Shown here: positions 6,002 through 13,086 of the stretch, piece after piece
How the letters are laid out: each line of letters opens with the position of its first letter
Numbering within the stretch: the first letter of the stretch is position 1
NCBI GenBank assembly: GCA_003232915.1
Contig: QIKE01000023.1
Coordinates: 1-59,067, forward strand
Reading direction: 5' to 3'
DNA: 59,067 nucleotides
DNA from: Bacteroidota bacterium
GTDB taxonomy: Bacteria; Bacteroidota; Bacteroidia; Bacteroidales; F082
The notes under the pieces: generated by a model
Seen by the model: only the letters and a program-made list of their open reading frames with translations
What the model was told of the DNA's origin: nothing
Database searches by the model: none
Translations under genes and position numbers: made by a program

Positions 6002-7834
6002 ATGGATAAAAAAGTCGTGATAAGTACTTCAATAAACGGCCCGTTGGTTGTAAAAAACGTAAAAAGTTTAACCGAATCAAACAGAAACATCTTTTCTGTT
6101 AAAAAAATAAACATTGCACTTTGTCGCTGTGGCGAATCGAAGCACAAACCTTTTTGCGACGGTACGCATGGCAAAATCGGCTGGACAAGCGAAAAGTTGC
6201 CAAGTCAAATCTCAAGGAAAACAGATTCTTATAAGGGAAAACAAATTACTATTCACGACAATCGAGATATTTGTGCACATATTGGTTTTTGTACGGCAGG
6301 TTTACCCGGAGTTTTCCAAATGGGTGTTGAACCTTGGATAAACCCCGATGCCGAAACCATAGAAAAAATTATCGAAACAATAGAAAAATGTCCTTCAGGT
6401 GCATTAAGCTATTCCATTGACGGTGTGTTGTATGACACATTTGCTGAGCATCCCGAAATAATCATTACAGAAGATGGCCCTTATTTTGTTAAAGGTACAA
6501 TTGAATTACACGACAAAAACATGTCCCAATCCGAAGAGCATTATGCCTTGTGCCGCTGTGGAAAGTCGAAAAACAAACCTTTCTGCGACGGCCAACATTG
6601 GTACACAAAATATAAAGATGAGGGCAAAATAAGACCTATCGGACTAGACAAAAATGAAAAAGTAGCCGGCATTCAAAAACTTGCCGAAAGCGGAAAAAGT
6701 GAAAACTCGGCTATGCGTACCTTGCGAACTTTTCCCAATTTTGAAACAATTGTTTTCAAAGGTGCACAACTATACAAAATGCCATTAAACGTAGAAGTAC
6801 AAGTAAATACAAAGACCGTTATAGGAAAAAAAGCCAAACAGCCTCTCGAATTGTCAATGCCTTTTTACGTTTCGCATATGTCGTTCGGTGCCCTTTCGCG
6901 TGAGGCCAAAATAGCACTCGCAAAAGGTACAAGCCTTGTGGGTACTGCAATGTGTTCGGGTGAAGGAGGTATGCTTCCCGAAGCACGCAAAGCCGCCACC
7001 AAATATATTTATGAACTCGGAACAGCTGCTTTTTCGCATGTTGACAGGGTAATGATGCAAGCCGACGCCGTAGAACTAAAAATTGGTCAAGGCGTTAAAC
7101 CTGGTTTAGGTGGACATTTGCCTGCACACAAAGTAACCGGAGAAATAGCAAAAATAAGAGGCTTGAAGCCAGGACAAGCCTCCGTTTCGCCGGGAAGACT
7201 TGCCGGAGTTGACGATTTAAAAGATTTACAAGAGAAAGTTGCACACATCAAAGAAATTACCAATGGCAAACCCGTTGGAATAAAATTTGCCTCCGGACAT
7301 ATTGAAGAAGACCTTGAATTTGCTCTTAAGGCCGAACCTGATTTTATCACCATCGACTGCCGAGGAGGAGCAACGGGTTCTTCTCCTAAATTTCTGAAAG
7401 ATAACGTGGGTATTCCTCCTCTTTTCGTTATTCGCCGGGCAAGAAATTATCTCGACAAAGTAAAAAGTAAAGTAACATTTTGTGTTACAGGTGGTTTTAG
7501 AGATAGTTCCGATATTGCCAAAGCCCTAGCCCTTGGTGCTGATGCCGTTGCCCTTGCTACGGCCTCAATGATTGCTATAGGATGTATTCAGGCAAAAGTT
7601 TGCCATACGGGAACTTGTCCGGTGGGCATTGCAACACAAAACGAGCAACTGCGTGAACTCTTTGATGAAAAAAAAGCGCTAACACAATTCAAAAATTTTT
7701 ACACGGCAACCAATAATGAATTGATGATTTTTGCCCGTACCAACGGTGTAAACGATGTTCATCAACTTGATGTTTCCGATTTAGTTACCGACAGTAAATT
7801 GGTTTCCGATTTTACCAATATCGAACATGTTTAA
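6002..7834 (+). CDS. CDGSH-ferredoxin-CDGSH-FMN glutamate-synthase-like fusion protein
   Basis: 610 residues. Two CDGSH iron-sulfur motifs (C41, C43, C52, H56 and C184, C186, C195, H199, each CRCGxSxxKPFCDGxH) bracket a divergent ferredoxin segment (Fer4_19/DUF1271 type; C91, C97 and C130 in KCPSGALSY). Residues about 230-600 form a GltS-like FMN TIM barrel (SHMSFGALSREAK, SPGRLAGVDDL, IDCRGGATGSSP, GGFRDSSDIAKALALGADAV). It ends with the Cys-x5-Cys-x4-Cys [3Fe-4S] signature of glutamate synthase (C528, C534, C539). No glutaminase domain is present, so it is not a full glutamate synthase. It is probably a flavin oxidoreductase with an internal electron-transfer chain; the substrate is unknown. 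First gene of a five-gene operon, 13 bases before the next. Confidence 0.88.
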   Translation: MDKKVVISTSINGPLVVKNVKSLTESNRNIFSVKKINIALCRCGESKHKPFCDGTHGKIGWTSEKLPSQISRKTDSYKGKQITIHDNRDICAHIGFCTAGLPGVFQMGVEPWINPDAETIEKIIETIEKCPSGALSYSIDGVLYDTFAEHPEIIITEDGPYFVKGTIELHDKNMSQSEEHYALCRCGKSKNKPFCDGQHWYTKYKDEGKIRPIGLDKNEKVAGIQKLAESGKSENSAMRTLRTFPNFETIVFKGAQLYKMPLNVEVQVNTKTVIGKKAKQPLELSMPFYVSHMSFGALSREAKIALAKGTSLVGTAMCSGEGGMLPEARKAATKYIYELGTAAFSHVDRVMMQADAVELKIGQGVKPGLGGHLPAHKVTGEIAKIRGLKPGQASVSPGRLAGVDDLKDLQEKVAHIKEITNGKPVGIKFASGHIEEDLEFALKAEPDFITIDCRGGATGSSPKFLKDNVGIPPLFVIRRARNYLDKVKSKVTFCVTGGFRDSSDIAKALALGADAVALATASMIAIGCIQAKVCHTGTCPVGIATQNEQLRELFDEKKALTQFKNFYTATNNELMIFARTNGVNDVHQLDVSDLVTDSKLVSDFTNIEHV

Positions 7835-7847
7835 AATCTAATTTAAT

Positions 7848-10448
7848 ATGAAAAAAGAAAATACTATAATTTCACCTTTAAAGAACGGACCGCTTTTGGT
7901 GAAAAACTTGCAAAAGCTTTTTAATTCGCGGGGCGAAATCATTGAAACAAAGCAAAATATGACATTGTGCCGCTGTGGCGCGTCCAAAACTAAACCTTTT
8001 TGCGACGGAATGCATAAAAGCGTTGGTTTTATCGATGAAAAAAGCAAAAATCGTGTCGCCAATAAAAGAGAAACGTATAAAGGTAGCTCCATTACTATTC
8101 ACGATAATCGGGGTATTTGTTCGCATGCCGGCTTTTGTACTGATAATCTTCCCAATGTGTTTCGCTTAGGTACTGAACCTTGGATCGACCCTGAAGGAGC
8201 CGAAATTAAAGAAATAAAAAGAGTAATAAAAATGTGTCCGTCAGGTGCATTGAGCTATACCGGAAAAAAAACCGAGACAAATGAATTTTTCGAGGAAGCC
8301 GAAATCATTGTATCTAAAAACGGCCCTTATTATGTTAGGGGAGGGATGGAAGTACAAAATGCAGATTTTTTCGACGGAGCTTCAAAAGAACATTTTACCC
8401 TATGTAGATGTGGAAAATCTAACAATAAACCTCGTTGCGACGGCGAACATTGGTATGCTGCTTTTAAAGACGACGAAGCCCTTACCATTTCTGCAGCCAA
8501 CCGAAAACGTGAAAAAAAAGAACCGCAATGGGTCAAAGTTGCCGAACCGGAAGAATTAAGTAATAGTGGTACAAAAAAGCTAAATTTGTTTTCGCAGCAA
8601 ATTTTGTTGTCGAAAGTAAACGGGCAGTACGGTGCAATCGAAGGGGTTTGTTCGCATCAGGGTGGTCCGCTTATTGACGGTAAAATCGAAGATGGCATTA
8701 TTCGTTGTCCTTGGCACGGTCATCCATTCGACCCCATTAGCGGGAAGTCGCTTGGCACCGACGACAATTTGAAATCCTTTGAAGTGGAAGAACGTGCTGG
8801 CGGTGTTTATTTGAAAATAGCTCCGGCAAAAAAATCGACTTGGACAGTAAGCCATGTTATTGCCGAAACACTTGTAAATTGGGGTATTAAACATGTTTTT
8901 GGTATGGTAGGTCATTCTAATCTTGGTATGGCCGAAGCCTTTCGCATTCAAGAAGAAAAAAGAAACCTTAAATATATCGGTATCCGTCATGAAGGAGCGG
9001 CCGCTTTTGCTTGTTCGGGTTATTCTAAAGTTTCGGGCAAGCCGGCTGTATGTTTCACCATTGCAGGCCCGGGAGCAACCAATTTACTCACCGGTTTGTG
9101 GGATGCCCATATTGACCGAACAGCAGTTTTAGCCATTACCGGACAGGTAAATACACAGTTTTTCGGCCCTGGTTCGTTTCAAGAAATTGATTTAAAAGAA
9201 GCCTTTCAGGCTGTTGCTCCTTTCAGCAAAGTGGTATTGCCAAACAGTAAACATGCCGAATTGGCTTCGCTTGCTTTAAAAAATGCCATTGTGCAAAGAA
9301 ACGTTTCGCATTTGATTATTCCCGATGATGTGCAAACCCTTGATGCTGGGAGTTGTGCCCCTGGTTCTCCCGACGGTCGACTAGCAGATTGGCACATTAC
9401 ACCTTCCGGAGATTCGGTGAATTTATCAATGTACAGGATCTGGAAGGCCAAACGCCCTGCCATTATTGTAGGTTACGGCGCCCGAAACAATATGAACAAA
9501 ATTATAGCTTTTGCCGAAAAACTCATCGCTCCAATTCTTACCACTTTTAAAGCCAAAGGACAAATTGCTGACAGTCATCAGCTTGCTGCCGGCGTATTGG
9601 GTAAAAGTGGAACGCCGGTTTCATCCTATTTTATGAATTCTGCCGATCTGCTCATTGTTTTCGGGGCATCTTTTTCGCAACACACTGGTATAGATAAAGC
9701 AAAACCTATTATACAGGTTGATAACGAACAAATGGCACTAGCAAAATTCCATGCAGTGGACAATCCCGTTTGGGGTGATGTGGGAATAACGGCAGATATT
9801 TTTTCCGGCAAACTCACCGGCTCTTCGCAGTCGGAAATAACCCTAAAGGAAATTGCAGAACGTAAGAAAACTTGGCGTAACGAGAAAAATTTACGTGCAC
9901 TCGAAAATAACGGTAACGGATTAAATTCAATTTTTATTTTTAATAAATTATCGAAAATTTTACCCGAAAATGCCATCGTCAGCCTTGATGTGGGTAACAA
10001 CACATATTCTTTCGGACGATATTTCGAGTGCAAAAAGCAAAAGGTGATTTTGTCGGGCTATCTTGGATCTATCGGCTTTAGCTTTCCGGCAGCCATTGGT
10101 GCGTATTATGCGGCTCCAGATACACCAATTGTTTCCATTAGCGGCGACGGCGGTTTCGGACAATATATGACAGAATTTAATACAGCCGTACTCCATAAAA
10201 TGAAAATAACTCATATTTTACTGAATAATAACGAATTGGGTAAAATATCGAAAGAACAGCGGGATGTAAATATGCCTCAATGGCAAACAAACCTTAGCAA
10301 TCCTGATTTTGCTCGGTATGCCAATATTTGCGGCGGTTTGGGTGTTAGGGTTACAAAAAACGAAGAACTTGAAGAGGCTGTATTAAAAGCATTAGATTAT
10401 GCCGGACCTGCTATAGTTGAAATTACGACCGACCCTTTGTTGACTTAA
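7848..10448 (+). CDS. CDGSH-ferredoxin-CDGSH-Rieske-ThDP enzyme fusion
   Basis: 866 residues. The first 210 are paralogous to the start of the preceding protein: CDGSH 1 (C41, C43, C52, H56), ferredoxin segment (C91, C97, C130) and CDGSH 2 (C186, C188, C197, H201). A Rieske [2Fe-2S] domain follows (C268, H270, C287, H290 in CSHQGGPL and CPWHGHPFD). Residues about 330-866 form a complete thiamine-diphosphate enzyme of the acetolactate synthase / pyruvate oxidase superfamily. Its catalytic Glu is E382 (RHEGAAAFACSGY), and the ThDP-Mg motif runs from GDG at 766-768 to NN at 793-795. All ligands look intact. The substrate is unknown; a 2-oxoacid oxidised with electrons passed to the Fe-S domains is a reasonable inference. 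Co-transcribed with its neighbours (gaps of 13 and 15 bases). Confidence 0.87.
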   Translation: MKKENTIISPLKNGPLLVKNLQKLFNSRGEIIETKQNMTLCRCGASKTKPFCDGMHKSVGFIDEKSKNRVANKRETYKGSSITIHDNRGICSHAGFCTDNLPNVFRLGTEPWIDPEGAEIKEIKRVIKMCPSGALSYTGKKTETNEFFEEAEIIVSKNGPYYVRGGMEVQNADFFDGASKEHFTLCRCGKSNNKPRCDGEHWYAAFKDDEALTISAANRKREKKEPQWVKVAEPEELSNSGTKKLNLFSQQILLSKVNGQYGAIEGVCSHQGGPLIDGKIEDGIIRCPWHGHPFDPISGKSLGTDDNLKSFEVEERAGGVYLKIAPAKKSTWTVSHVIAETLVNWGIKHVFGMVGHSNLGMAEAFRIQEEKRNLKYIGIRHEGAAAFACSGYSKVSGKPAVCFTIAGPGATNLLTGLWDAHIDRTAVLAITGQVNTQFFGPGSFQEIDLKEAFQAVAPFSKVVLPNSKHAELASLALKNAIVQRNVSHLIIPDDVQTLDAGSCAPGSPDGRLADWHITPSGDSVNLSMYRIWKAKRPAIIVGYGARNNMNKIIAFAEKLIAPILTTFKAKGQIADSHQLAAGVLGKSGTPVSSYFMNSADLLIVFGASFSQHTGIDKAKPIIQVDNEQMALAKFHAVDNPVWGDVGITADIFSGKLTGSSQSEITLKEIAERKKTWRNEKNLRALENNGNGLNSIFIFNKLSKILPENAIVSLDVGNNTYSFGRYFECKKQKVILSGYLGSIGFSFPAAIGAYYAAPDTPIVSISGDGGFGQYMTEFNTAVLHKMKITHILLNNNELGKISKEQRDVNMPQWQTNLSNPDFARYANICGGLGVRVTKNEELEEAVLKALDYAGPAIVEITTDPLLT

Positions 10449-10463
10449 TAATAAAAATACTGT

Positions 10464-11753
10464 ATGATAAAAATAGTTGAATTGAAAACAAATGAATTGA
10501 AAAATCTTTTTGATAACAAAGAGGTTAAAATTATTGATGTGCGTAGCGTAGATGCCTATAATGGTTGGAAACTCAATAACGAGTTTAGAGGCGGTCATAT
10601 TAGGGGCGCAAAATCTTTACCCGCAAAATGGACAAAGTATTTGGATTGGATTGAAATAGTTAATTCAAAAGAAATTTTAACTCAAGATAAAATTGTGGTT
10701 TACGGTTACAATAAAGTGGAAACGGAAAAAGTTGCTAAATATTTTTTAAATGCCGGCTTTGACAATATAAACAGTTATCATCATTTTATTGACGAGTGGA
10801 CGGCAAATACCGAATTGCCTATGGAACAATTAAGCCGGTATCAACATTTGGTTTCTGCCGAATGGGTGAAAAAACTTCTTTCTGATGAAAATCCGCCGGA
10901 GTATGGTAACAGCAAATATATAGTGTGTCAAGCACATTATCGCAACCGCAATGCATATCTTTCAGGACATATTCCCGGAGCTATCGACATAGATACATTA
11001 GCGCTTGAGGCACCCGAAACATGGAATAGGCGTTCACCTGATGAACTTAAAACAGCTTTAGAACAGCATGGGATAAACGCCGATACTACTGTGGTTTTAT
11101 ACGGGAAATTTATGTGGCCCGACAATGCCGACGAATTTCCAGGAAGTGCCGCCGGACATATCGGGGCTATACGTTGTGCTTTTATTATGTTGTATGCGGG
11201 TGTAAAAGATGTGCGTGTGCTTAACGGGGGTTTTCAGTCGTGGATAGATGCCGGTTACGATACCAGTACCGTGGATGTTGATAAAAAACCTATTGCCGAC
11301 TTTGGAGCAAAAATTCCAGGTCAAGCCAAACTTGCCGTTGATTTGCCCGAGGCACGAGAAATACTGAAATCGAAGGATGCTGAACTAATTTGTGTACGAA
11401 GTTGGCCTGAGTTTATCGGTGAGGTGAGTGGTTATAACTACATCGAAAAAAAAGGACGTATTCCAGGTGCCATATTCGGAAATTGCGGTAGCGATGCATA
11501 TCATATGGAAAACTACCGGAATGTTGACCATACTACCCGTGAGTTTCACGAAATTGCCCAACAATGGAAAGCAGTTAGCATTACTCCCGACAAACATCTT
11601 GCTTTTTATTGTGGAACAGGCTGGCGCGGTAGCGAAGCTTTCTTTAACGCTTGGCTGATGGGATGGCCCCGTGTGTCGGTTTTCGATGGCGGCTGGTTCG
11701 AATGGAGTAATAACCCCGATAATCCTTATGAAACCGGAATACCCGAAAAATAA
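10464..11753 (+). CDS. eanB: Triple-rhodanese sulfurtransferase, EanB-type anaerobic ergothioneine synthase
   Basis: 429 residues with three rhodanese folds (about 1-112, 130-265, 285-425). Domains 1 and 2 lack a loop cysteine (VVYGYNKVE, VVLYGKFM). Only domain 3 has an active loop, C383-GTGW-R388. As I recall, EanB of Chlorobium limicola uses Cys412, with Tyr353 and Thr414 nearby and further cysteines at 184, 339 and 370. Here C383, Y324, T385, C155, C310 and C341 all sit exactly 29 positions earlier. EanB transfers persulfide sulfur onto hercynine without oxygen. The EgtD-type methyltransferase two genes downstream, which would make hercynine, supports the call. The alternative is a generic thiosulfate sulfurtransferase, which is less likely given the residue register. 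Confidence 0.85.
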   Translation: MIKIVELKTNELKNLFDNKEVKIIDVRSVDAYNGWKLNNEFRGGHIRGAKSLPAKWTKYLDWIEIVNSKEILTQDKIVVYGYNKVETEKVAKYFLNAGFDNINSYHHFIDEWTANTELPMEQLSRYQHLVSAEWVKKLLSDENPPEYGNSKYIVCQAHYRNRNAYLSGHIPGAIDIDTLALEAPETWNRRSPDELKTALEQHGINADTTVVLYGKFMWPDNADEFPGSAAGHIGAIRCAFIMLYAGVKDVRVLNGGFQSWIDAGYDTSTVDVDKKPIADFGAKIPGQAKLAVDLPEAREILKSKDAELICVRSWPEFIGEVSGYNYIEKKGRIPGAIFGNCGSDAYHMENYRNVDHTTREFHEIAQQWKAVSITPDKHLAFYCGTGWRGSEAFFNAWLMGWPRVSVFDGGWFEWSNNPDNPYETGIPEK

Positions 11754-11786
11754 TCAATAGTAATAATCTTCACTAAATAATTTGCA

Positions 11787-12071
11787 ATGAAAGCATTTTG
11801 GAATGGTAAAACAATTGCCGAAAGCGATAAAACAATCGTTATTGAAAACAACCATTATTTTCCACCCGAAACCGTAAATAAACGTTATCTCGAAAATAGT
11901 GATACTCATACGGTTTGTCCTTGGAAAGGGGTGGCATCGTATTATCATATTAACGTTGATGGAAAAAAAAATAAAGATGCTGCATGGTATTATCCACAAC
12001 CCAAACCGATGGCAAAAGATATTTGTAATTATGTTGCCTTTTGGAAAGGAGTATCTATCAAAAAAAAATAA
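11787..12071 (+). CDS. DUF427 family protein
   Basis: 94 residues, the full length of a single DUF427 domain. Family features include the N-terminal WNGKTIAESDKT strand pair, VIENNHYFPPETV, the conserved HTVCPWKGVASYYHI core and the C-terminal AWYYPQPKPMAKDICNYVAFWKGV. No signal peptide or membrane segment. The biochemical function of DUF427 is not established to my knowledge. It lies 33 bases after eanB and 10 bases before eanA, so it is very likely co-transcribed with ergothioneine-type genes. Confidence 0.85.
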   Translation: MKAFWNGKTIAESDKTIVIENNHYFPPETVNKRYLENSDTHTVCPWKGVASYYHINVDGKKNKDAAWYYPQPKPMAKDICNYVAFWKGVSIKKK

Positions 12072-12081
12072 CCGGAACATA

Positions 12082-13086
12082 ATGAATTATACAAAAAAAG
12101 AATTATTAACCAAAGGAGGATTTCAGCTAATTAACTATTTGCCAAGTATTGGAATAGAAAAAGTTAGAGAAGAAATAATTGCCGGCCTTAAAACTATACC
12201 TAAATACATTGCCAGCAAGTTTTTTTACGACGAAAAAGGTTCGGAACTTTTTGAGAAAATCACCCAACTCAATGAATATTATCCAACACGAACCGAAAAG
12301 AAAATTTTATCGACAATTGTATCCAGACTAAATGTTGATTTTACTAACATTAATATTGTTGATATCGGTAGTGGCGATCCTACTAAAATTCGTTTGCTAT
12401 TTAGTCAACTATCTGAGCAAGTCGTTTCTACAATAATTTATTATCCGGTGGACATTAGCCAATCGGCTATTGAAAAAGCAGCGGAAAAATTGATCCTAGA
12501 ATTCCCTATGTTAAAAATTAAGGGAATCGTTGCAGATTTTATTTTTCAACTTAAACTTTTACCTAAAACAAAAAATAGGTTGTTTTGTTTCTTTGGTAGT
12601 ACAGTTGGAAACCTAAGCGCAACCGAAATAGAGTTCTTTATGAACATGTTGGGAAATGAAATGCAACAAGGAGACAACTTTTTACTCGGAATAGATATGA
12701 TAAAAGACGTTGCCGTTTTGGAAAACGCTTATAACGATGAACAACAAATAACAGCTCAATTTAATAAAAATATTTTAAAGGTGGTGAACAATCTTTCGGG
12801 AACAAATTTTAATCCTAACGAATTTGAACATCTTGCCTTTTTTAATGCTGAAAAAAACAGTATTGAAATGCACTTGAAAGCGCTGAAAAACGTGGCTATT
12901 ATCTTTGATTCAAGTACGGATAAAGTTTATCTGAAAAAAGGAGAAACCATCCATACCGAAAATTCTCATAAATTCAATTTCAATAAAATAAAAACTATTG
13001 GTCTTTGGGCCGGATTGGATATCGAAAAAGTTTTTGCAGATGATAACAGATGGTTTAACGTGGTGCATTATAAGAAAAACAAATAG
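12082..13086 (+). CDS. eanA: L-histidine N-alpha-methyltransferase (EanA/EgtD family)
   Basis: 334 residues from the ATG at 12082. An upstream GTG at 11899 runs through the DUF427 gene and is not used. Family marks: FFYDEKGSELFEKITQLNEYYPTRTE (residues about 47-72, histidine-binding Tyr region), SAM motif VDIGSGDPTK (93-102), PVDIS (122-126), FGSTVGNL (171-178, with the Asn that holds the histidine amine), GIDMIKD (203-209), NAYND (215-219) and IEMHL (261-265, carrying the Glu that contacts the imidazole). EgtD enzymes add three methyls to histidine to give hercynine, the substrate of EanB and EgtB. No egtB, egtC or egtE gene is in the window, which favours the anaerobic EanA/EanB route. Confidence 0.88.
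   Translation: MNYTKKELLTKGGFQLINYLPSIGIEKVREEIIAGLKTIPKYIASKFFYDEKGSELFEKITQLNEYYPTRTEKKILSTIVSRLNVDFTNINIVDIGSGDPTKIRLLFSQLSEQVVSTIIYYPVDISQSAIEKAAEKLILEFPMLKIKGIVADFIFQLKLLPKTKNRLFCFFGSTVGNLSATEIEFFMNMLGNEMQQGDNFLLGIDMIKDVAVLENAYNDEQQITAQFNKNILKVVNNLSGTNFNPNEFEHLAFFNAEKNSIEMHLKALKNVAIIFDSSTDKVYLKKGETIHTENSHKFNFNKIKTIGLWAGLDIEKVFADDNRWFNVVHYKKNK

Follow-up and report, generated by a model that had tools for sequence, protein, structure and literature searches.

A putative iron-sulfur redox pair in an operon with EanA and EanB homologues of a Bacteroidales bacterium

What do two large iron-sulfur (Fe-S) fusion enzymes and a small DUF427 protein do in an operon that appears to serve ergothioneine synthesis? 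The question is raised by contig QIKE01000023.1 of the Bacteroidota bacterium assembly GCA_003232915.1 (Bacteroidales), of which we analyzed positions 1 to 59,067, hereafter called the window. Five open reading frames (ORFs) follow each other on its plus strand at 6002-13086, with intergenic gaps of 13, 15, 33 and 10 bases. This layout, which had been read from the letters in an earlier note on this DNA (the original prediction), is solid on the ORF coordinates. The mechanism proposed in the same note, an ergothioneine pathway expanded by the three extra genes, is partly supported: these genes do belong with the ergothioneine genes, but genes 1 and 2 look like an independent redox pair that has joined them, and not like steps of the synthesis.

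The five genes and their association with EanB

The features of the operon are listed below, with the domains assigned by Pfam.

6002..7834, plus strand: gene 1, CDC module (CDGSH - Fer4_19 - CDGSH) followed by a glutamate-synthase flavin mononucleotide (FMN)/3Fe-4S domain (CDC-GltS), 610 aa
6002..6631, plus strand: CDC Fe-S module of gene 1, residues 1-210 (Fer4_19 at 6230-6415, one CDGSH at 6473-6601)
6683..7750, plus strand: Glu_synthase domain of gene 1
7848..10448, plus strand: gene 2, CDC module, Rieske domain and thiamine diphosphate (ThDP) enzyme of the pyruvate-oxidase/PoxB kind (CDC-Rieske-ThDP), 866 aa
8526..8753, plus strand: Rieske [2Fe-2S] domain of gene 2
8844..10424, plus strand: ThDP N, middle and C domains of gene 2 (TPP_enzyme N/M/C)
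10464..11753, plus strand: gene 3, EanB homologue with three rhodanese domains (PF00581), C383 in CGTGWRG at 11610-11612
11787..12071, plus strand: gene 4, DUF427 protein (PF04248), 94 aa
12082..13086, plus strand: gene 5, EanA/EgtD histidine methyltransferase homologue (Methyltransf_33), start ATG 12082, 334 aa

Sequence comparison makes a convincing case for genes 3 and 5 as homologues of EanB and EanA, as had been proposed. In the PDB, gene 3 matched eight distinct sequences labelled Sulfurtransferase (6ktv, 6kw0, 6h98 and others) at 670-679 bits, the best being 6ktv (679 bits across residues 5-428), whereas YnjE reached 293 bits; we take the set of 6ktv, 6kw0 and 6h98 to be Chlorobium limicola EanB. 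C383 and the CGTGWRG motif, in the last rhodanese domain, were invariant in 8/8 aligned proteins, and this cysteine is presumably the catalytic residue of EanB. The product of gene 5 passed the TIGR03438 (EgtD) cut-off (338.0 vs. 290.9 bits) and keeps N166, Y206, M252, E282 and S284 (positions via alignment), all five residues of what we take to be the EgtD histidine site in M. smegmatis numbering. Its start was set at ATG 12082, which fits the gap and the EgtD family match; the GTG 11899 of the ORF list overlaps gene 4.

The surroundings of EanB in other genomes were surveyed in a census of the best 80 of 397 EanB relatives from a species-genome scan, a selection biased towards gene 3. Gene calls at these loci were partly made by a simple ORF picker, and many contigs were short, with 32 of the 80 loci having at least 6 kb on both sides. 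On the same strand and within 10 kb of EanB, we found EanA at 54/80 loci, DUF427 at 34/80, GltS at 17/80 (16/80 once the distant GltS of L108, 35%, is left out) and ThDP at 11/80; on the opposite strand, the same distance held no EanA, GltS or ThDP and a single DUF427. Rough chance expectations, based on copy number in 395 genomes of the phylum with a 3.5 Mb genome and random placement assumed, were 0.036 loci for GltS, 0.006 for ThDP and 0.063 for DUF427. The 32 loci with long flanks gave EanA 20, DUF427 12, GltS 6 and ThDP 6. DUF427 was thus the commonest neighbor of EanB after EanA, among the families counted. A GltS match at E 1e-60 was obtained in 20 of the 50 census genomes (out of 80) that were searched. 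Two loci were not counted as linked, L082, with a Rieske N-terminus at the contig end, and L077, with an ORF of 67 residues. The latter (L077:6700-6903), which lies immediately before EanB, is similar to the C-terminus of a CDC-GltS and may be the relic of a lost gene.

The association is therefore not peculiar to the window, and the part of the original prediction that tied the extra genes to those for ergothioneine is borne out by the GltS (16/80), ThDP (11/80) and DUF427 (34/80) counts. It is not restricted to loci labelled Bacteroidota either, since one linked locus (L115) is labelled Deferribacteres. We identified eight CDC-GltS genes, all except that of the window found via EanB loci or EanB genomes and hence a biased set; the seven with a readable downstream side sit upstream of EanB, either directly or with ThDP in between, and the eighth lies at a contig end. 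One genome (G433) has an EanB with a Rieske-GltS and, on another contig, a second EanB copy beside a CDC-GltS that is one of these seven; the frame of this second EanB is broken in the deposited DNA (L203:4573-5845).

Several further families recur in the 80 loci as same-strand neighbors of EanB at distances of up to 10 kb: AhpC/TSA (11), NDH2-like (9), FMN reductase-like (9) and thioredoxin-like proteins (7), disulfide-reductase-like flavoproteins (4) and permease-binding proteins of the betaine/ergothioneine type (4). By clustering, 14 loci also have DUF5996 at most 6 kb from EanB, and this family adjoins GltS or ThDP without EanB nearby in L153, L208, L209, L216 and L217. The most extensive arrangements include ten colinear genes in Lentimicrobium sp. 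KA12 (NDH2-like, DUF427, EanB, EanA, DUF5996, DUF3179, permease/binding protein, ATPase, Rieske-GltS and Rieske-ThDP) and the contiguous CDC-GltS, CDC-Rieske-ThDP, EanB, EanA and two transporter genes of L137. The binding domain of the L137 transporter has as best PDB match 8dp6 (309 bits), which we take to be the structure of an ergothioneine transporter; choline/betaine-type proteins match it at up to 211 bits, several of them above the EgtUC entries (140-149), so that its specificity is uncertain. Its assignment as an ergothioneine transporter is tentative, also because many relatives outside the EgtU subcluster are described as devoid of the ergothioneine determinants (PMC9732360).

The GltS and ThDP enzymes as a pair

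A less biased picture than that of the census was obtained from the phylum sample of 395 genomes, in which EanB occurred in 18, GltS in 60, ThDP in 11 and DUF427 in 83 (the Fisher tests on this sample are uncorrected for kinship). GltS was present in 10 of the 11 ThDP genomes (1.7 expected, p=3e-8), while EanB was found in only one of them, the window's own. This contrast between 10/11 sharing with GltS and near-chance sharing with EanB indicates that GltS and ThDP form a pair of their own. In 5 of the 10 genomes that share them (the window's, G077, G088, G304 and G312), no more than a few kb separate the two genes, and of the 18 EanB genomes 3 (the window's own, G116 and G385) have GltS next to EanB. 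The pair extends to haloarchaea: a Salinirubellus plasmid encodes a Rieske-ThDP protein with 51% identity to gene 2, one gene away from a Rieske-GltS, and on a Halorarius plasmid a gene annotated as thiamine-pyrophosphate-binding is four genes from a GltS gene; no EanB is annotated in the 11 kb shown of these plasmids, where annotation was the only search made for it. Near the Rieske-GltS/ThDP genes of two genomes where EanB was not found, we observed a membrane protein with Rieske and ferric-reductase-like parts (L061:13478-14506, 342 aa; L216:7533-8573, 347 aa), a possible third partner of the pair.

Both enzymes of the window begin with the same kind of Fe-S module. In gene 1, two zf-CDGSH domains and Fer4_19 precede a Glu_synthase domain (317 bits), and the order CDGSH - DUF1271/Fer4_19 - CDGSH is that of subtype CDC of CISD (CDGSH iron-sulfur domain) type 7; since Fer4_19 separates the CDGSH motifs, the protein falls outside CISD type 5 (tandem CDGSH plus GltS). 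Cysteines C528, C534 and C539 of the cluster were invariant in 12/12 aligned proteins and match the positions in solved GltS structures. Gene 1 lacks the N-terminal glutaminase domain and scores 151 bits for the full glutamate synthase family, against a cut-off of 1047. Three of the four residues that we take to be the 2-oxoglutarate site of Synechocystis glutamate synthase are kept (E903, K966 and R992), the fourth, Q978, being replaced by His372. A stand-alone CDC protein of 229 aa, with 52-57% identity to the fused CDC modules, was seen after a DEAD-box helicase gene in another genome (L062:9511-10200, G140).

Gene 2 has the same CDC order (two zf-CDGSH, Fer4_19), followed by Rieske and TPP_enzyme N/M/C domains. 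It is nearest to the pyruvate oxidases, below their cut-off (382 vs. 742 bits for PRK08611), and its best solved relative is 3eya (204 bits). The alignment stops at residue 526 of the 549 of PoxB, and gene 2 ends six residues past the aligned part; the missing C-terminal end of PoxB is presumably its membrane-binding peptide. Electrons would thus more likely leave through the Fe-S domains than towards the membrane. Elsewhere in the window, at 47990-49837, a gene has a domain of the 2-oxoacid:ferredoxin oxidoreductase gamma type (PF01558), so that ferredoxin-linked oxidation of 2-oxo acids is probably present too.

The Fe-S modules of the two enzymes match in all 14 loci that have both genes, 3 pairing CDC with CDC and 11 Rieske with Rieske (Fisher p=0.003, uncorrected for descent); in one of the former, L137, the GltS N-terminus is cut by the contig end and one CDGSH motif is visible. 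Such matching is expected if the GltS and ThDP enzymes swap electrons or share a carrier via like modules. Together with the fact that the pair also occurs away from EanB, in Bacteroidota and haloarchaea, it supports the reading of genes 1 and 2 as an independent redox pair.

The history of the linkage was followed in two trees. In the EanB tree, the linked state was scattered, with at least 14 changes (a quick tree with many weak forks, in which gain and loss are indistinguishable); this count omitted loci with less than 4 kb on a side and no match, and L053 and L109 are one contig. In the GltS tree (58 rows, one per place), the 19 EanB-linked rows fell into three clades, with at least 4 changes: a CDC clade (7 linked, 1 contig-cut), a Rieske clade of three (L052, L085 and L109) and a Rieske clade of nine. 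L204 counted there as unlinked, L077 was too short, and the root and the deep forks are uncertain owing to the long row of L108; an earlier GltS tree had omitted five unlinked loci (L005, L006, L007, L017 and L019) as well as L144. On the GltS side, these trees point to a small number of joinings (at least three), in which the enzymes had different Fe-S modules; the EanB side shows more scatter. Repeated joining with different modules argues for a functional link over one inherited accident, without telling its nature.

Possible roles of the pair beside EanA and EanB

We infer the reactions, electron path, substrate and stress role that follow. Genes 3-5 would form a first unit that makes ergothioneine without oxygen: EanA would trimethylate histidine and EanB would transfer sulfur from a persulfide or polysulfide to the ring, with the DUF427 protein as a small accessory to which the model assigns no role. 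Genes 1 and 2 would form the second unit, the independent Fe-S redox pair. Gene 2 would oxidatively decarboxylate a 2-oxo acid, most likely pyruvate. Its Rieske and CDGSH clusters would pass the electrons on to gene 1, first to the CDGSH clusters and then to the 3Fe-4S/FMN domain, which would carry out a glutamate-synthase-like reduction (ammonia and 2-oxoglutarate to glutamate, or a related substrate). Both units would be co-expressed and act together as a redox-stress island. Enzymes of the ThDP family act on 2-oxo acids, and the quaternary amine of ergothioneine blocks its transamination to one, so that ergothioneine is not a normal substrate for gene 2; nor does the transfer of persulfide sulfur to trimethylhistidine need net electrons. 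With the missing PoxB end, these two points lead us to prefer the model of 2-oxo acid oxidation feeding GltS within an ergothioneine redox-stress island, to which we give an even chance of being right. We take ydaP and yerD to be the Bacillus relatives of genes 2 and 1, respectively. A stress role fits the peroxiredoxin-, thioredoxin- and disulfide-reductase-like neighbors of EanB, and also the SigB gene list of Bacillus, which has both ydaP and yerD (PMC7824861). One may go further and suppose, more speculatively and with rather little probability, that genes 1 and 2 are an NAD(P)H-independent relay of largely His-ligated clusters (CDGSH, Rieske) that directly couples a glutamate-synthase-type reduction to the oxidation of pyruvate or another 2-oxo acid, as a stand-in under stress for oxygen-sensitive ferredoxin enzymes, with ergothioneine as its dedicated partner or protectant.

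Several observations weigh against the preferred model. At 62 of the 80 EanB loci we saw no GltS and no ThDP, though many contigs are short, and all 18 named linked loci come from records titled as metagenome-assembled genomes. In the phylum sample, EanB and ThDP share 1 of 18 genomes (0.5 expected, p=0.41), no excess over chance, and EanB and GltS co-occur weakly (6/18, 2.7 expected, p=0.04; 5/17, p=0.09, when the window's genome is excluded). The GltS clades are clean, so that three joinings may be enough to account for the linkage, and the three CDC-ThDP proteins form one clade, so that the three CDC pairs may be one event. Gene 1 also differs from the solved glutamate synthases, with His372 for Gln and Leu for Glu, and with this altered site and the glutaminase domain absent its product may not be glutamate. 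The structures predicted for genes 1 and 2 were of low quality (mean predicted local distance difference test scores of 55 and 61, with the CDC modules mostly below 50), insufficient for testing the electron path, and were not used for fold searches.

The linkage is also compatible with mere co-regulation, in which the ergothioneine genes and the GltS/ThDP pair would answer separate needs under the same stress from a shared promoter, with no biochemical contact. This is a real contender, of lower probability than the preferred model, and it draws on the occurrence of the pair without EanB, on the many EanB loci where neither enzyme was seen, on a gene order that varies among lineages and on the mosaic GC content of the operon (41-42% in genes 1-3, 33 and 32% in genes 4 and 5, 36% in the whole window). 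It sits less well with the presence beside EanB of three GltS clades and two kinds of Fe-S module, with the scatter of the linked state on the EanB tree and with the position of CDC-GltS upstream of EanB in 7 of 8 cases (in the biased set described above, whose eighth gene is at a contig end).

More intimate roles appear less probable still. That genes 1 and 2 act on ergothioneine or its oxidized forms, by disulfide reduction, degradation or modification, is suggested by the redox flavoproteins and betaine/ergothioneine-type transporter genes of related clusters, and by L137, where both CDC enzymes, EanB, EanA and two transporter genes are contiguous. We nevertheless consider it improbable given the need of the ThDP family for 2-oxo acids, which the quaternary nitrogen puts out of reach; to our knowledge, GltS-type FMN barrels do not act as disulfide reductases, and the pair also exists where EanB was not found, though imported ergothioneine could be available there. 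Least likely of all, in our view, is direct support of EanB chemistry through the making of persulfide or reducing power. Gene 3 does start 15 bases after gene 2, and CDC-GltS is followed directly by EanB or by ThDP and then EanB, but the sulfur transfer is electron-neutral, the Pfam search showed no desulfurase or sulfide-oxidizing domain in genes 1 and 2, and the GltS/ThDP pair is present in genomes in which we did not find EanB. Moreover, a Bacteroidales EanA and an Anaerobacillus EanB-like enzyme were sufficient for ergothioneine production in Bacillus licheniformis (PMC11767532). The persulfide supply by the extra enzymes that the original prediction had envisaged finds nothing pointing to it in our results, and its expanded pathway is not supported as it was worded, with 10 of the 11 ThDP genomes of the phylum sample having GltS, EanB found only in that of the window, and EanA and EanB sufficing on their own.

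DUF427, EanA variants and known systems

DUF427 and EanB overlap in 10 of 18 genomes of the phylum sample (3.8 expected, p=0.001). As a general marker of ergothioneine, DUF427 had to be discarded, being present in 73 of the 395 genomes where EanB was not found. Thirty DUF427 loci with 1.5 kb flanks showed an EanA-like gene in only two (L165 and L170, which belong to the EanB-positive genomes G081 and G364) and EanB in none. An apparent link of DUF427 to glutamine synthetase in a review proved to concern the name DUF4278. Two plasmid loci with egtB-egtD had no gene annotated as DUF427 within the 11 kb shown; on one of them, from Persicobacter (L227:6307-9005), egtB-egtD is followed by five hypothetical genes of 92 aa at regular spacing, the first without a Pfam match.

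A second type of EanA-like neighbor accounts for 24 of the 46 full-length EanA-like neighbors aligned; it has 28-34% identity to gene 5 and Ser in place of one site Met, and its L137 member (282 bits) is below the TIGR03438 cut-off of 290.9. In 3 of the 80 loci (L077:6922-9171, L129 and L133), EanB and EanA form a single open frame, apparently a natural fusion, of 749, 749 and 676 aa (the 676-aa frame lies at a contig end). Another, second EgtD-like gene of the window's genome (G000:C10:37815-38744, L224) scores 265 bits, again under the cut-off; some 660 bases separate it from a gene for an aromatic amino acid lyase (Lyase_aromatic) with an ASG motif, which we take to be that of the MIO (4-methylideneimidazole-5-one) group. 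The lyase was considered as an ergothionase, which is unlikely, histidine ammonia-lyases matching at up to 279 bits vs. 141 for ergothionase. No CydA was found in this genome, which is 86.6% complete, so that its absence is unproven.

Earlier work has described CDGSH types 5 and 7 and reported that CDGSH occurs together with Fer4_19, Rieske and Glu_synthase domains (PMC3174974 and PMC5859297). Among the literature matches listed (titles and abstract openings), we saw no description of GltS or ThDP enzymes with EanB, which may still be in print, nor, among the same matches, of CDC-GltS and CDC-Rieske-ThDP fusions. The two enzymes had been called new-looking in the original prediction; this stands for the CDC fusions. 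In the phylum sample, Rieske-GltS is common and Rieske-ThDP less so. Whether ergothioneine has functions under anoxia has been raised as an open question (PMC9516567), and a cluster that joins ergothioneine synthesis, an Fe-S redox pair and, in a few genomes, a likely betaine/ergothioneine transporter offers concrete candidate partners. The recurring partnerships in other bacteria point to an unstudied companion redox system, and they make DUF427 a candidate ergothioneine-associated protein. They also expose an apparently unstudied ThDP-GltS pair that spans Bacteroidota and haloarchaea and whose two enzymes have electron modules of the same type.

Compared with known systems, the operon shares with the EanA/EanB pathway of Chlorobium limicola both enzymes, close together and well conserved, and differs from it by the added DUF427, CDC-GltS and CDC-Rieske-ThDP genes. 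With EgtU transporters, the common point is the permease-binding protein near EanB in 4/80 loci, such as that of L137 with its uncertain specificity; the window's operon has no such gene. Gene 2 shares its ThDP domains with pyruvate oxidase/PoxB (204 bits for 3eya) but scores below the family cut-offs, lacks the C-terminal end and has N-terminal Fe-S modules added. Gene 1 resembles CISD type 5 (PMC3174974) in having CDGSH clusters N-terminal to a GltS FMN domain, as in a Vibrio fortis protein that combines two CDGSH stretches with a GltS domain; it differs by its type 7 CDC module and by a GltS clade apart from the Rieske forms. A further related system is the Rieske-GltS and Rieske-ThDP pair of Bacteroidota and haloarchaea, which has the same two catalytic domains, near each other in 4 of the 10 other ThDP genomes of the phylum sample, whereas the pair of the window has the CDC module on both enzymes and is placed in an ergothioneine operon.

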